This document shows, one piece after another, positions 4,366 to 51,071 of a DNA stretch of 64,000 nucleotides (position 1 is its first letter; the number at the start of each line of letters is the position of its first letter). A model generated the notes under the pieces. It was given only the letters and a program-made list of their open reading frames with translations, was not told the DNA's origin and made no database searches. Both the position numbers and the translations under genes were made by a program. Origin of the DNA: Bacillus sp. 123MFChir2 (GTDB lineage Bacteria; Bacillota; Bacilli; Bacillales; Bacillaceae_G); NCBI RefSeq assembly GCF_000383235.1, contig NZ_KB910942.1:1-64000 (forward strand), read 5' to 3'.

Positions 4366-4481
4366 AAATAATCGAAAAAGCATTAAAAAATGTGGTTGAA
4401 AGAAAAATCGCAGTACTAAAAATAATGAAGATTAGAAAAAGAAAAAAGTCATGATACTGAGCTATAAAGGAGCGATTATTT

Positions 4482-4649
4482 ATGATTATTTTAAAGTTTA
4501 TTAAGTTGATTCTTAGGGTAATTTTAAAGCTATTGATGATTACAGTTATAATTTCATTTGCAGTCATTAAGTTTCTGATTTCTTTTGCTTTAATGCTTTT
4601 TACGCTCGGAGCTTTTGCATCGAATGACTATTATCGAAGAAGGTTTTGA
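4482..4649 (+). CDS. Small hydrophobic membrane protein of unknown function
   Basis: 55 residues, MIILKFIKLILRVILKLLMI and onward, ending ASNDYYRRRF. It is almost wholly hydrophobic, with lysine/arginine residues spaced along the first helix and a basic C-terminus, and would span the membrane once or twice. AAAGGAG lies 8-10 bases before the ATG. It is the last gene before the terminator at 4692-4725 and probably belongs to the same unit as the decayed peptide. No family recognised. A short lysine-rich frame at about 4358-4453 lies between the two membrane genes but has no convincing start. Confidence 0.5.
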   Translation: MIILKFIKLILRVILKLLMITVIISFAVIKFLISFALMLFTLGAFASNDYYRRRF

Positions 4650-4691
4650 AGAGGAGCACAGAGTTTGACGCTTACTGATCTATTGTATATA

Positions 4692-4725
4692 AAGAAAAGA
4701 GATATACATTCATATCTCTCTTCTT
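4692..4725 (+). terminator. Terminator hairpin after the small-peptide locus
   Basis: A 14-bp stem with one mismatch (AAGAAAAGAGATAT / ATATCTCTCTTCTT) and a 6-nt loop lies 43 bp after the last small membrane gene. The 3' flank is T-rich. It could also serve convergent transcription from murB. Confidence 0.6.
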
Positions 4726-4857
4726 GCTCCTCTGTAGCTAGTTATCCCAATTAAAACTGTCCATTTTGTTCAAACTTCTTACGTACTTATTTAGTATATA
4801 ACTAGCCTTTTTGTATATTTCACGCATTGACACAAACATCTCAAGTGGTTCTTACTA

Positions 4858-5772
4858 TTAAGACTTTACTTCTTCTCCAATAATTTTCACTTCTGTTTCT
4901 AATTCTACGTTAAATTTAGATTTTACCGTTTCTTGCACATATCTGATAAGTTTTACATAATCACTCGCTGTACCTCCACCTACATTCACCATAAATCCAG
5001 CATGCTTCGTAGATACTTGGACACCACCTATTTGTTTACCTTGCAACCCGCTATCTTGAATTAACTTACCCGCAAACATACCTGGAGGACGTTTAAAAAC
5101 ACTTCCACAAGAAGGATATTCTAATGGCTGTTTTGATTCACGTAAAAATGTCAATTCATCCATTTGTTCTTTGATTTTATTGTAATCTCCTTCTTGTAAA
5201 GCAAATGTCGCTTCTAACACAAGGTACCCTTCTCTAGAAATGGAACTGTTTCTGTATTCTAATTCTAAATCATTTTTATTTAGATTAAGAATTTCGCCAT
5301 CTCTAGTTAGAACTAACACACTTTCAATAACGTGTGATACTTCGCCACCATATGCTCCTGCATTCATATATACTGCTCCGCCAACTGTTCCTGGAATGCC
5401 ACAAGCAAATTCTAATCCAGTTAGATGATTTTCAAGTGCAAATTTAGAAGTATCAATAATAGTTGCTCCGCTTTGAACAATAACCTTATTATCTTTTAAT
5501 AAAATATCAGTTAACTTGGTTAAATTCAGAACAATCCCTCTTATGCCGCCATCTTTAATAATTAAATTTGAACCATTACCTAAAATAGTAAAATCAACAT
5601 CATTTTGATTTGCATATTTTACTACATCTTGTACCTCTTGATACGTAGTAGGTAAAACAAAGTAATCTGCATTTCCACCCGTCTTAGTGAAAGTATATCG
5701 TTTTAACGGCTCATCTTTTTTAACTTTATTATCATCTAATATATTTAATAAATCGTTGTATACTTTATCCAT
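4858..5772 (-). CDS. murB: UDP-N-acetylenolpyruvoylglucosamine reductase (MurB)
   Basis: 304 residues, the size of the shorter MurB type. It reduces UDP-GlcNAc-enolpyruvate to UDP-MurNAc with NADPH and FAD, the second committed step of peptidoglycan precursor synthesis in the cytoplasm. The FAD-binding half shows [15 protein letters not shown] (residues ~62-76) and [14 protein letters not shown] (~131-144). The catalytic region shows YRNSSI, the [10 protein letters not shown] serine motif (~221-230) and the [15 protein letters not shown] segment. B. cereus group genomes usually carry two murB genes; this stand-alone copy is probably the one outside the division cluster. Confidence 0.93.
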
Positions 5773-6608: not shown

Positions 6609-7193
6609 TTAGTTCTGATTGTATTTATTTTCAAATTCCATTTTTGCAATTTTAGTATATTTGTTAACAAATTCTGTTTTTGCTTTCATATATCCGTCTC
6701 TGTCATGTTTATATTTATCTATTAAGCTCATTTTTAAGTTACCATATTCTTGGGCAACATCTTTATGTAATTGTAAAAAATCTCTAAAATACAATTCATT
6801 CCAGTTCCCCATATACCTAACATGAAGATGAAATACTTTTTCAGCAAATCCTCTCTCTGTATAACCTTTCATAAACATCATATGAGGCGCTGGTTTTTGT
6901 GGTTGCTTTTCTAAGATATATCCGTTTTTTTCTAGTGCATTCACTAAAAGTTTCAAATTACAGTCCTTAGTTATTTCAAGCAATATATCAATCGTTGGCT
7001 TTGCTAATAATCCGTTAACAGAAGTACTTCCTATGTGATGTATTCGTTCGATATATTGATTACCGATTATATTGTTAAATAGTTTTTCTTCTTGTAAATA
7101 CCAATCTTTCCATATTGGATTATGTTCTTTCAATATTATTGGAAACAGTTCCCACAATTCTTCAAGTGACATTTCTAATAAACTCTTAGCCAC
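6609..7193 (-). CDS. GrpB-family (UPF0157) nucleotidyltransferase-like protein
   Basis: About 194 residues. HIGSTSVNGLLAKPTIDILL is the hallmark of the GrpB/UPF0157 family, which has a nucleotidyltransferase-like fold with the GS...D.D pattern. FHLHVRYMGNW and the RDFLQLHKDVAQEYGNLK helix follow as in other members. In some members the domain is fused to dephospho-CoA kinase; here it is alone. I place the start at GTG 7193 because GGAGGAG lies 5-11 bases upstream; the in-frame ATG at 7208 overlaps that ribosome binding site. The reaction is not known. Confidence 0.85.
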   Translation of the reverse strand: MAKSLLEMSLEELWELFPIILKEHNPIWKDWYLQEEKLFNNIIGNQYIERIHHIGSTSVNGLLAKPTIDILLEITKDCNLKLLVNALEKNGYILEKQPQKPAPHMMFMKGYTERGFAEKVFHLHVRYMGNWNELYFRDFLQLHKDVAQEYGNLKMSLIDKYKHDRDGYMKAKTEFVNKYTKIAKMEFENKYNQN

Positions 7194-7290
7194 AATACAC
7201 TCCTCCATTTTACTAAGTAAACCATTTTATCAAACTTTATTTCAAAGCTACATCTACATTCTCAAATGTTGAGTAAAATATTTCTCGCTT

Positions 7291-7689
7291 TTAATCCTGA
7301 ATTTTTTCCAGCTTTGTAACCCGTACCTTCGCAGGATAAGATTCAAGTATTTCACTACATTCTATTCTAACTTTGTCACCTGTTTGTAATTCCTTTTCTA
7401 TATTTAGATAATTAAAGTGTAAAATAGCGTCAGCAGGAATTCTCCTTTTTAATCTCTCTTCTAAGTTTTTTCTATCGTAATCATCTTTTATATGTTTCTC
7501 TTCAATGAAAAACACAGTATCTCCCTTTAGTAAAATATAGCCATCTATTCTATTAGAAACCGCATTATTATCTATTTTTGTTATAGATTGGTTTAACTCA
7601 TTACTTGTATTTGCCTTCCACATTAAAGTAACCATAAAAATCATTACAAAAACTACAATTATTCCAGCTATTTTTATACCGTTGTTCAT
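7291..7689 (-). CDS. DUF3221-like membrane-anchored protein
   Basis: About 132 residues. A single N-terminal membrane segment (IAGIIVVFVMIFMVTLMW, residues ~6-24) precedes an extracytoplasmic domain. That domain contains IDGYILLKGDTVFFIEE and ends with a DKVRIECSEILESYPAKVRV beta-rich block typical of DUF3221 proteins. No lipobox is visible, so it is probably a signal-anchor protein. Several ATG codons cluster at 7689-7695; I chose the last, nearest to a usable AGGTGATGGAG ribosome binding site. It is followed by the nucleosidase gene upstream with a 61-bp gap. Function unknown. Confidence 0.65.
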   Translation of the reverse strand: MNNGIKIAGIIVVFVMIFMVTLMWKANTSNELNQSITKIDNNAVSNRIDGYILLKGDTVFFIEEKHIKDDYDRKNLEERLKRRIPADAILHFNYLNIEKELQTGDKVRIECSEILESYPAKVRVTKLEKIQD

Positions 7690-7758
7690 CTCCATCACCT
7701 AAAATGCCTTTTCTAAAAAAGCTATTAACAAACAGTTGGAATACCGGAAGTGAAATCT

Positions 7759-8463
7759 CTACACTTTCATTTCTTTTGAGACACGCAGTAAAAATGCAAT
7801 CATATATTCGCATGCTTTCTCACAAGCTAACATTTTAAACACTCTTTGTTCTTCGACTGTTTTATCATCCGCTTGATCTGAAGCGGCTTTTAAACAAAGA
7901 AACGGTTTTTCATTCACATAACAAACGTAAGAAAATGCTGCAATTTCTTGATCTACTGCAAGCGCTCCGTATACTGTCTGAAGTAATTCTCTCGTTTCTG
8001 AACTACGAATACGCTGGTCACCTGAAACAACAGTACCATAATGAGAAGGATAAACGAATTGCAACTTTTTCATTTCTTTAATCAACTGTTTTGAAGGATG
8101 AATACTTGCTGCTCTTCCTGTATATAAATCAAACGGATCCGTTTCCATTCCTGCCCCTGTTACATCATGTTGCATAACTTTAGTAGCGACAACAATATCA
8201 CCGTTTTTCAACTTGTTTGATAAACTTCCGCAAATCCCTGTCATAAATAGCTCTTTTGGTTGAAATTCACTAATCAGAAGCTGAACACAACTTGTACATT
8301 GTACCTTTCCGACTCCAGTTATAACAGAAATCAATTCAACACCGCTCAGATTATGAAAATGAAATTCCCAAGCTGCTCGTTTTTCTTTTTTATAGCTTGG
8401 GTAATATTTATGTAAATATGTAAGCTCTGGCTCCCATGCCGCCACAATAGCAATCCGCTTCAT
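7759..8463 (-). CDS. MTA/SAH nucleosidase-like phosphorylase superfamily protein
   Basis: 234 residues of the PNP/UDP phosphorylase fold. The N-terminus MKRIAIVAAWEPEL places a glutamate where MTA/SAH nucleosidase has its general acid. The GVGKVQCTSCVQLLI and FMTGICGSL motifs follow. The C-terminal LKAASDQADD carries the catalytic aspartate. The usual VEMEG motif is replaced by VDQEIAAF, so the substrate may differ from methylthioadenosine or S-adenosylhomocysteine. The family cleaves the N-glycosidic bond to release adenine. AAAGGA precedes the ATG. Confidence 0.8.
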   Translation of the reverse strand: MKRIAIVAAWEPELTYLHKYYPSYKKEKRAAWEFHFHNLSGVELISVITGVGKVQCTSCVQLLISEFQPKELFMTGICGSLSNKLKNGDIVVATKVMQHDVTGAGMETDPFDLYTGRAASIHPSKQLIKEMKKLQFVYPSHYGTVVSGDQRIRSSETRELLQTVYGALAVDQEIAAFSYVCYVNEKPFLCLKAASDQADDKTVEEQRVFKMLACEKACEYMIAFLLRVSKEMKV

Positions 8464-47000: not shown

Positions 47001-47547
47001 CCTACGGTTAGAAGTCTTACAGCTTCGTTTTTAAGGTTTTGTCCTGCGTTAATATCCCTGTCATGATGTGTGCCACAAGAAGGGCTATCCCATTCACGAA
47101 GATTTAGATTCTTAACGTCTTTGTTTTGGTAACCACAACAAGAACAAAGCCAAGTTTGGGTAATTTTATTTTATCTCCTGCAATCGCAATATTTCCGTTT
47201 GTTTGTTTTGTTGTATAGGATTGGATTTTATTCTTTTTAGACTTAAAGCGAGGTGCTTCTGTTTGTTTTTTTAAAAAACGAGTGAACGCATCTGCAAGGT
47301 TTTTGAGTACAGATTGCAAGGAAATACTGTCCACTTCTTTTAACCACATGAATTCCTTTTTCAATTGTGTTAATTCTGCTGAACAAGAATGATATGTCAA
47401 TCCTTTTCCTGTTTCCTTGTATGTGTCATTCCAACGTGCCAAAAATCGATTGAATACGAAGCGAGAACAACCAATCGTCTTAGCGATTAAAATTTCTTGT
47501 TTTTTGTTTGGGTATATACGGAATTTGTACGCTTTATTGACAATCAT
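46979..47547 (-). pseudogene. tnpB: TnpB (OrfB) transposon nuclease with large internal deletion
   Basis: From ATG 47547 (GAGGGGAAGG upstream) ~145 residues match the TnpB N-terminus: YKFRIYPNKKQEILIAKTIG and SRFVFNRFLARWND. Near 47160 a deletion joins another frame: [20 protein letters not shown], then [20 protein letters not shown] and VGTTGIAY before TAA at 46979. Thus the zinc ribbon and last RuvC aspartate (DRDINA) remain, but the first two RuvC acidic residues and ~190 residues are lost. It cannot cut DNA, though its right end may still act in trans. Confidence 0.82.
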
Positions 47548-47625
47548 GACCTTCCCCTCACACGTTACAATATACATATTATACCAATTTTAATATATTT
47601 TATATGTCATTTTAGAGGTGAAGAC

Positions 47626-49721: not shown

Positions 49722-50072
49722 GTTATTTTTGCATACTGTAATGAAATATTTCCTGTATCTGTTTATTTAATTATTGAGAGTCAAGTTTTTTCAATTCCCC
49801 CTCACCTTTAAAGGGCTAAACCATACGTTTTATGAAAGCTCGTCTTAATTTGTAACCTTTAACATCCAAGTACCTCTTATAGCACCTTCCTTAAAAAGAG
49901 CATTTGTAAAATGGTGTTCTTATTTATTGTACTCGATATAATACACAACTCTTCTTATATTCCTACTAACTTCCTAAAAGCCGCGACCAATTATATTTAA
50001 AATACATGTAATAAAGTAAGGGTTGTCTACTATTCAGACTACTCAAATCTAATTAATGAAAGGGTGTTATAT
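49722..50072. other. Intergenic region upstream of the DUF3992 pair
   Basis: About 350 bp without a gene. It is AT-rich with no strong hairpin. The promoter of the first DUF3992 gene should lie at about 49980-50040 (AAAATACATGTAATAAAG region). A sigma-K-type -10 (CATAxxxTA) is not convincing. Confidence 0.4.
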
Positions 50073-50402
50073 ATGGGTTGTTGCCCTGATCCTCAATTTG
50101 TCACTTTTTCTACATGTGATGATTTTACTACAACTGCTGCTGATGTAGTTGGTGGAGTTACTGTATTTGATAATACTGGTGGGCCAATACTTTCTGGTTA
50201 CGTTACTTTAACTAACTTTTCTACAAGCAGTAGTACTACTTTTTTAGCAAACAATGGTACAAACATTATATCCGCATTGAACCAAGGAGACAGCAAGACT
50301 GTTTATGTAGCAAATATAGGAACATTGGTTGCTTTTTCCGGTGCTGCTGGTCAACCTGTTACTGGTAGAGTTTGTGTTGATGCTTCTAGACGAGTAGCGT
50401 AA
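50073..50402 (+). CDS. DUF3992-like protein, possible endospore appendage (Ena-type) subunit
   Basis: 109 residues from ATG 50073 (AAAGGGTG upstream). The start MGCCPDPQFVTFSTCDDF has a CC-x10-C spacing, as in the N-terminal connector of Ena fibre subunits, whose cysteines cross-link neighbouring subunits. The body is threonine/serine/glycine-rich beta sandwich (SGYVTLTNFSTSSSTTFLAN; GDSKTVYVANIGTLVAFSG) ending GRVCVDASRRVA. Ena fibres cover B. cereus group spores. No signal peptide, as for Ena proteins. Similarity is judged by eye, not by search. It is followed by its own terminator and a second DUF3992 gene. Confidence 0.65.
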   Translation: MGCCPDPQFVTFSTCDDFTTTAADVVGGVTVFDNTGGPILSGYVTLTNFSTSSSTTFLANNGTNIISALNQGDSKTVYVANIGTLVAFSGAAGQPVTGRVCVDASRRVA

Positions 50403-50408
50403 CCTACG

Positions 50409-50447
50409 AAAAGATATTAATCCATTTTTGGGTTAATATCTTTTTTT
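50409..50447 (+). terminator. Terminator between the two DUF3992 genes
   Basis: AAAAGATATTAA(T)CC and GGTTAATATCTTTT form a 14-bp stem with one bulge and a 7-nt loop, followed by T7. It lies 6 bp after the first gene, so the second has its own promoter or is expressed by read-through. Confidence 0.85.
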
Positions 50448-50566
50448 AATCACTGTGTTTTTCTAAATTTCTTACTAATTATTCCCTATTATTTGTAAAC
50501 GTATATGTGATTTTTAAATATTATATATAATACGTATTTATATTATTTAGAAATGAGGCATTGTAC

Positions 50567-50983
50567 ATGACAAGAAACCTTTGTAATTCTATGCCAATTC
50601 ACTATCCAATTGGAATACCTTGTTCTTTTCCTGTTCCGATTTATGATCCACCTCAAAATCCGCAAGAAGAATGCAAAGTTGTATGTAATGACATTTGCGG
50701 TAACTTTTTACTTAGTGATCATTTTACTTTTCTTGAAGTTTGGGAAAAGAAAGTTCATAATTCTATTACTGGTACTGTTACAGTTTATAACGATATACAA
50801 AGCTCACTTGTTGAAGTTAATGTGGAACAAAATACAGGAAACCCTATTCTTTTCAAAATTCCCCCTGGAAATTCGGTTTCTAAAACAATTCAAAATATCA
50901 AAGCAGTTACAATTCGTCTTATCCAACCTGGTAGTGCGAACGGCAAATTCTGCTTAGATATATGTTTTGCTATAGACAGATAA
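50567..50983 (+). CDS. DUF3992-like protein, possible endospore appendage (Ena-type) subunit
   Basis: 138 residues from ATG 50567 (TGAGG upstream). A proline-rich N-terminal extension (MPIHYPIGIPCSFPVPIYDP) precedes a cysteine cluster CKVVCNDICGNF. The DUF3992-type beta sandwich follows: SITGTVTVYNDIQSSLVEVN, then FKIPPGNSVSKTIQNIKAVT and GKFCLDICFAI. The GTVTVYN ... PPGNS.S ... I.AVTI ... G.FCLD pattern is the DUF3992 layout. It has no secretion signal and would be made in the mother cell if it is a spore protein. The extension may be a capping or anchoring region. Confidence 0.72.
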   Translation: MTRNLCNSMPIHYPIGIPCSFPVPIYDPPQNPQEECKVVCNDICGNFLLSDHFTFLEVWEKKVHNSITGTVTVYNDIQSSLVEVNVEQNTGNPILFKIPPGNSVSKTIQNIKAVTIRLIQPGSANGKFCLDICFAIDR

Positions 50984-51008: not shown

Positions 51009-51071
51009 GTAAACGTCAAGCAACTCCAAAAGCAATCTTCATTGTATATTTTGGAGTTACTTGACGTTTAC
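51009..51071. repeat. 23-bp near-perfect inverted repeat after the DUF3992 pair
   Basis: Left arm 51009-51031 and right arm 51049-51071 pair at 22 of 23 positions around a 17-nt loop; the arms begin GTAAACGTCAAG and end CTTGACGTTTAC. It is 25 bp after the second DUF3992 gene. No T run follows on either strand, so it is not a standard terminator. It could be an RNA-stabilising hairpin or part of a small mobile element. Confidence 0.75.

Follow-up and report, generated by a model that had tools for sequence, protein, structure and literature searches.

The 64,000-nucleotide stretch analyzed here (the window; positions 1 to 64,000 of contig NZ_KB910942.1 of Bacillus sp. 123MFChir2) carries two neighboring, intact open reading frames, gene 1 and gene 2, which are examined here as a candidate two-gene system for building fibers on the spore surface (Table 1). 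An initial annotation, made by eye, had placed both among the DUF3992 proteins of endospore appendages (ENAs), and a hidden Markov model search bore this out, with both proteins scoring above the curated 22-bit cut-off of PF13157 (Enas, DUF3992; gene 1, 26.6 bits, E 6.3e-6; gene 2, 64 bits, E 1.6e-17). The beta-sandwich that had been suspected was also recovered by structure prediction, as both models presented the eight-stranded Ena sandwich and had solved Ena3A, Ena1C, Ena1B and Ena2A as their best fold matches. Both proteins are members of the Ena family (DUF3992/Enas) with an Ena sandwich. Matches of gene 1 to FKBP, and of gene 2 to IS200-like and TOBE domains, fell below the curated cut-offs and were set aside. 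As the annotation had also stated, no other ena gene lies beside the pair: profiles A1, A2, A5 and A6 detected no further ena-like frame among the 509 stop-to-stop frames (≥40 aa) of the window, and a search of the same frames for collagen-like sequence found no run of six GXY triplets.

Table 1 Features of the gene pair and its control signals (window coordinates).
Feature	Position	Strand	Length	Basis
Gene 1, Ena-type pilin candidate	50073-50402	+	109 aa	PF13157, AlphaFold 2 (AF2) model, fold matches, prophage relatives
Gene 2, Ena1C-type anchor candidate	50567-50983	+	138 aa	PF13157, Ena1C match, 7a02 alignment, fold, prophage relatives
Whole cassette	49969-50983	+		blastn of window against 14 prophage loci
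Hairpin and T-run, candidate attenuating terminator	50408-50445	+		folding z -7.9; prophage counterparts
Candidate late-sporulation (sigma-K-like) promoter, AC-N17-CATGTAATA	49986-50013	+		pattern scan; weak evidence

Gene 1 begins with the CC-x10-C pattern noted earlier and contains cysteines at C3, C4, C15 and C101 and no others, and in its AF2 model (mean per-residue confidence, pLDDT, 84.4) the first strand begins at residue 8. As described for Ena1B in PMC8619143, the N-terminal connector contributes Cys10 and Cys11, which form bonds with Cys109 and Cys24 of subunits incorporated earlier. The cysteine set of such a pilin, an N-terminal CC with acceptors near residue 24 and the last strand, is present in gene 1, where C101 was equated with Ena1B Cys109 by pattern, not by tool alignment. 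From this sequence pattern, gene 1 most likely encodes the fiber (shaft) subunit.

Gene 2 is laid out differently, with a Pro/Cys-rich leader preceding the Ena sandwich, no CC start, and cysteines at positions 6, 19, 36, 40, 44, 129 and 133. The proline-rich extension described in the initial annotation corresponds to 8 Pro in the first 32 residues, accompanied there by 2 Cys; the Ena1C leader is given 9 Pro and 4 Cys in PMC12921279. A sequence search of the Protein Data Bank (PDB) matched gene 2 to Ena1C (9t3p, E 1.9e-4). Its C129 aligned with Ena1B Cys109 (alignment to 7a02) and with a cysteine of the Ena1C chain (9t3p match), and was invariant in 7/7 aligned sequences. According to PMC12921279, the Ena1C counterpart of Ena1B Cys109 is Cys142, which lies within the lumen of the ring; without it anchoring is lost, the C142S form having failed to restore anchored fibers. 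With both an Ena1C-type leader and, in C129, the coupling cysteine of an Ena1C-type anchor, gene 2 most likely encodes an Ena1C-type base. The cysteine sets, the Pro/Cys-rich leader and the alignment of C129 are the reasons for proposing a shaft role for gene 1 and a base role for gene 2, and because these roles are unlike, the pair reads as one fiber system with its own base. The earlier suggestion of a third type of spore fiber needs correcting: S-, L- and F-ENA have already been described (PMC12921279, PMC11952670, PMC8619143), and the pair would be a further lineage rather than a third type.

Relatives of the pair were found in prophages. Searching IMG/VR with the gene 1 sequence returned 12 loci at 70-74% identity; the viral contigs yielded nothing to gene 2 alone, and the same 12 records were recovered at 58-66% identity once a gene 2 alignment was used. 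A gene 1 alignment added two further records (L047 and L048), which are ended by the record edge inside gene 1. The two genes were adjacent and in the same order in 12/12 whole prophage loci. PF13157 was detected for both genes in 10 of the 14 records, for gene 2 alone in 2 and for neither in the 2 cut records, and there was no third PF13157 copy in any of them. The records are diverse (3% to 80% shared 16-mers among 11 compared contexts), and 13/14 contain an integrase domain. TerL (PF03354) was found in 5/14, and these do not overlap with the 8 records carrying a BclA-type gene (see below); because the records are fragments, absence of a gene from them says little. In the loci read, the cassette is flanked on one side by a small recombinase and a late activator (phrog_216, phrog_248) and on the other by DnaD/DnaB-type replication genes (phrog_6251, phrog_186, phrog_19), and lies on the strand opposite to both flanking gene sets. 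The prophage relatives thus have the features of a phage accessory gene (moron), namely a place inside a phage genome, their own transcription signals and opposite orientation; the window copy, with its chromosomal-type neighbors, lacks the first of these. In one record (L014, the same as L046) the gene 1 frame is broken near 5001-5332 while the anchor gene is intact, and this record was left out of the protein alignments and substitution analysis. Alignments A1 and A2 comprise 7 rows each, drawn from 14 gene 1 and 13 gene 2 copies, with near-identical copies, and in A2 a Gracilibacillus gene 2 relative, omitted. As a control, Ena3A had no confirmed relative in IMG/VR. Neither gene 1 nor gene 2 was found in 50,697 deposited phage genomes (E 0.01), and plasmid searches with the DNA and with gene 1 returned nothing. 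Since the same pair sits inside Bacillus-type prophages, viruses may carry and spread spore fibers.

DNA similarity between the window and the 14 prophage loci (blastn) spans 49969-50450 and 50538-50974 and then ends; its upstream edge differs by locus (49969 to 50051), and outside the cassette just two short window matches to prophage loci were found. What surrounds the pair in the window is of ordinary chromosomal type (genes for a DEAD-box helicase, a MutS-type protein, a member of the 2'-5' RNA ligase family, a methyltransferase and a metallo-beta-lactamase-fold protein, and a shortened IS605 OrfB at 47104-47577, ~2.5 kb from the pair, in which Pfam matches a helix-turn-helix domain only), and no phage genes were spotted by eye in the window's lists of open reading frames. 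To us the stretch resembles chromosomal DNA of the Bacillus cereus group. The ratio of nonsynonymous to synonymous substitution rates (dN/dS) between the window and 4 prophage copies was 0.20-0.24 for gene 1 and 0.30-0.42 for gene 2, at a dS of about 0.64-0.78. Among the prophage copies themselves, gene 1 gave 0.05-0.07 in 5/6 pairs, with the most similar pair at 0.23, whereas values for gene 2 were 0.27-0.49. These ratios reflect purifying selection, and the pair has therefore been retained as proteins and selected in both chromosomal and prophage settings.

Control signals were examined next to the two genes. The terminator that had been reported between them was confirmed as a hairpin with a 17-bp stem and a 4-nt loop followed by a T-run (-19.1 kcal/mol; 0/200 shuffles equally stable). 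A hairpin in the same place (-16.4 to -18.9 kcal/mol) was present in 4/4 folded prophage representatives. It was absent from the output of a simple terminator scan, we think because its stem is A/T-rich. The hairpin may act as an attenuator by which shaft is made in quantity and base sparingly. The ATG of gene 1 follows a GAAAGGG stretch and that of gene 2 a GAGG stretch. Upstream of gene 1, a promoter-like site departs at a single position from the sigma-K consensus cited in PMC5749712 (AC ... CATA-N3-TA), a pattern with a chance rate per 200 nt of window of 0.08 (AC form) or 0.14 ([AC]C form). Its CAT.TAATA block was invariant in 11/11 aligned copies, and the strict AC form occurred in the window and 2/4 prophage representatives, with CC in the other 2. 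The same pattern scan did not find such a site before gene 2, the prophage BclA genes or the prophage DUF4183 genes. Sigma-K has been argued to be the likely driver of ena genes, with late mother-cell expression reported (PMC12921279), and the site upstream of gene 1 may be a sigma-K-like promoter, for which the evidence is weak. The state of these signals bears on whether the pair in the window is what remains of a lost prophage, decaying and no longer producing a fiber. This would fit the lack of visible phage genes around the pair, the restriction of similarity to the cassette, the nearby OrfB remnant and the missing tip gene, yet the frames, ribosome-binding stretches, promoter-like site and hairpin are all intact at this level of synonymous divergence, and a dN/dS of 0.20-0.42 against the prophage copies argues for maintenance, which makes such decay rather improbable.

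Overall, we read the pair as a minimal ENA cassette, with gene 1 as shaft and gene 2 as base, that moves as a unit (probability about 0.72). The gene 1 product would be made late in sporulation and polymerize by strand-to-strand joining of sandwiches, and disulfides would then lock the shaft, joining the N-terminal C3/C4 of one subunit to C15 and C101 of subunits added before it, on the model of the bonds between Ena1B Cys10/Cys11 and Cys24/Cys109. The gene 2 product would assemble into a ring through the same kind of strand joining, grip the spore through its Pro/Cys-rich leader and catch the first shaft subunits via C129, while the intergenic hairpin would set the supply of much pilin and little anchor. 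The cassette would be mobile as a unit, its chromosomal copy lacking a tip gene in the window and its prophage copies often having a BclA-type collagen gene upstream.

Several observations weigh against this assignment. The gene 1 connector is ~7 residues long versus 15 in Ena1B, the gene 1 sequence matched none of the solved Ena chains, including 7a02 and 9i0y, and a profile comparison of gene 1 with gene 2 failed (probability 3.7%). Pilin relatives in Shouchella and Gracilibacillus lack both C101 and a Pfam match, and the pattern scan found no promoter-like site before the pilins of L001 (Shouchella) and L095. For gene 2, the model is weak (pLDDT 66.8) and counting along the alignment gave no counterpart of the ring-locking pair of Ena1C (148, 154), the protein ending nine residues past C129. 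Alternatively, a fiber of the S-ENA or L-ENA kind, encoded elsewhere in the genome, could use both proteins as accessory parts, whether as cap, base or minor subunits. The absence of a tip gene from the window would suit this, as would Ena1C itself, an Ena-family protein described as serving as a non-fiber part (PMC12921279); against it, the pair travels without Ena1/2/3 in prophages, where no third PF13157 copy accompanies it, gene 1 has the full pilin cysteine set and gene 2 provides its own base. We therefore consider accessory parts unlikely, though less so than decay of the window copy.

Further genes accompany the cassette in prophages. A collagen protein with a BclA_C domain was found in 8/14 records, 7 of them among the 12 whole loci, where it lies upstream of the cassette, and its N-terminus reads HIPFPCSFPLP or HIPFPCAFPLP. 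A PC[AS]FP.P motif is common to this N-terminus (L040, 8131-9429) and the gene 2 leader (IPCSFPVP in the window) and is not present in the pilin. The motif may be a common docking peptide, its sharing suggesting that the collagen protein binds where the base binds. A DUF4183 protein scored above the cut-off in 2/14 records, and its MPIVKPF start resembles the hook pattern described for F-ENA (PMC11952670). Querying with this protein returned 22 viral loci (L071-L092), in whose fetched stretches a recombinase was found in 20, a DnaD-like gene in 14 (7 at only 31-42% likeness), a BclA-type C-terminus in 11 and the ena pair in 2. In one ena-bearing record (L042), the prophage region of the pair also contains a DUF4183 gene whose start is hook-like and a collagen gene with a BclA_C domain (4458-4727, 6630-7946). 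Neither the DUF4183 protein nor the BclA-like C-terminus was found in deposited phages, and plasmids searched with the full BclA-like protein gave nothing and with its leader one chance-level match. The prophage site has the look of a variable reservoir of genes for the spore surface.

Relatives beyond the prophages were detected in other genera. Those of gene 1 came from Shouchella (L001) and Gracilibacillus (L002), at 41% and 44%, each with an Enas-domain protein with a long leader near the pilin relative, and on a Peribacillus plasmid a relative of gene 2 (30%) neighbors both an Ena3A and a tip-like gene. That the Shouchella and Gracilibacillus relatives and the Peribacillus anchor sit in ENA-like loci also bears on a further explanation, in which the prophage genes code for structural proteins of the phage (head decoration or tail) with nothing but the sandwich fold in common, the window having acquired its copy from a phage. 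Four Ena entries rank higher in the fold matches, the genes lie among replication and regulator genes rather than head or tail genes and on the opposite strand, and BclA-type and DUF4183 spore-type genes adjoin them; this origin is highly improbable.

The pair is instead a candidate mobile spore-fiber cassette, chromosomal here, whose prophage copies would represent lysogenic conversion of the spore surface. We lean toward a broader view in which temperate Bacillus-type phages have a spore-gene site between their replication and recombinase/late-activator genes, lysogeny re-dresses the spore, and the window cassette has settled in the chromosome. With similarly modest confidence, the site would be stocked with Ena pilin and anchor, BclA-type collagen proteins and F-ENA-type DUF4183 subunits. 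Spore fibers affect the clumping and sticking of Bacillus spores. If prophages carry shaft-plus-base cassettes, the spore surface would be a target of lysogenic conversion, and a phage riding in a spore could gain by altering the spore's destination. A two-gene system would also make ENA shaft and base separable for study, with the hairpin possibly setting the shaft-to-base ratio. Spores of Wip1 lysogens are described as acquiring a double exosporium and, on the outside, filamentous material not present before; the passages concerned name no responsible gene (PMC2716549). Wip1 is another phage and the comparison is an analogy only. If prophages do carry such cassettes, descriptions of altered spores in lysogens would gain a testable gene class. 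No description of prophage-borne ena genes was found in the literature, in a search that left subscription papers and bioRxiv mostly outside.

Among known systems, S-ENA (Ena1A/B/C, Ena2) is resembled in the gene 1 cysteine set and in an Ena1C-type base with Pro/Cys-rich leader and coupling cysteine. The cassette differs from it in having one pilin rather than A and B, besides the shorter connector, the missing ring-locking pair and the lack of a sequence-level match to 7a02 or 9i0y noted above, and gene 2 runs in the same direction as gene 1, whereas ena1C is reported opposite to ena1B (PMC12921279). Membership of an S-ENA cluster was rejected, as the 64 kb hold one pilin and one anchor only and no ena1A/ena1B/ena1C or ena2 cluster. 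L-ENA consists of ExsL, L-BclA and Ena3A of the Bacillus cereus group, and its L-BclA start resembles the Ena3A connector, whereas the prophage collagen start resembles the gene 2 leader; membership was likewise rejected, the gene 1 group being apart from Ena3A and the window having no collagen-like tip gene. F-ENA (DUF4183, F-Anchor, F-BclA) has a similar logic of pilin, anchor and collagen tip, as described in PMC11952670, but is built from another protein family, and neither protein matched DUF4183 up to E 10, which excluded membership; yet a DUF4183 gene occupies the same region in the 2 prophage records mentioned.

A 20-row tree, which contains no Ena1 or Ena2 reference sequences, separated the gene 1 group (6 rows, 99/96) from Ena3A (3 rows, 100/99) and joined gene 2 to the Peribacillus anchor at 89/80; 9/17 of its inner branches are weak. 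Among 398 genomes drawn from the class, where a window gene used as query detected no species closely related to that of the window (69% identity in the best long match), the pilin profile hit 2, one being Shouchella itself and the other weak (E 8.4e-4). A PF13157 search in two orders was positive in 0/14 and 2/15. Two plasmid records were noted in passing. In one, labelled Klebsiella grimontii (L093, CP079755.1, 3984-6318), an Ena3A at 100% identity with the solved chain is accompanied by an L-BclA-like collagen gene and a gene of the Spo0E family; this record may be a mixture or carry a wrong label. The other, a small mobilizable plasmid from Priestia (L094, NZ_CP071483.1, 8,896 bp, MOBQ), carries an Ena3A-type gene, a 299-residue protein annotated as S-Ena type and a tip-like protein without collagen. 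An Rfam search found nothing. In the window, an inverted repeat lies directly after gene 2 at 51009-51071 (23-nt arms, 96% complementary, -32.5 kcal/mol). With no second copy in the window and no exact copy in the 95 fetched loci, it could be a two-way terminator or a small insertion.
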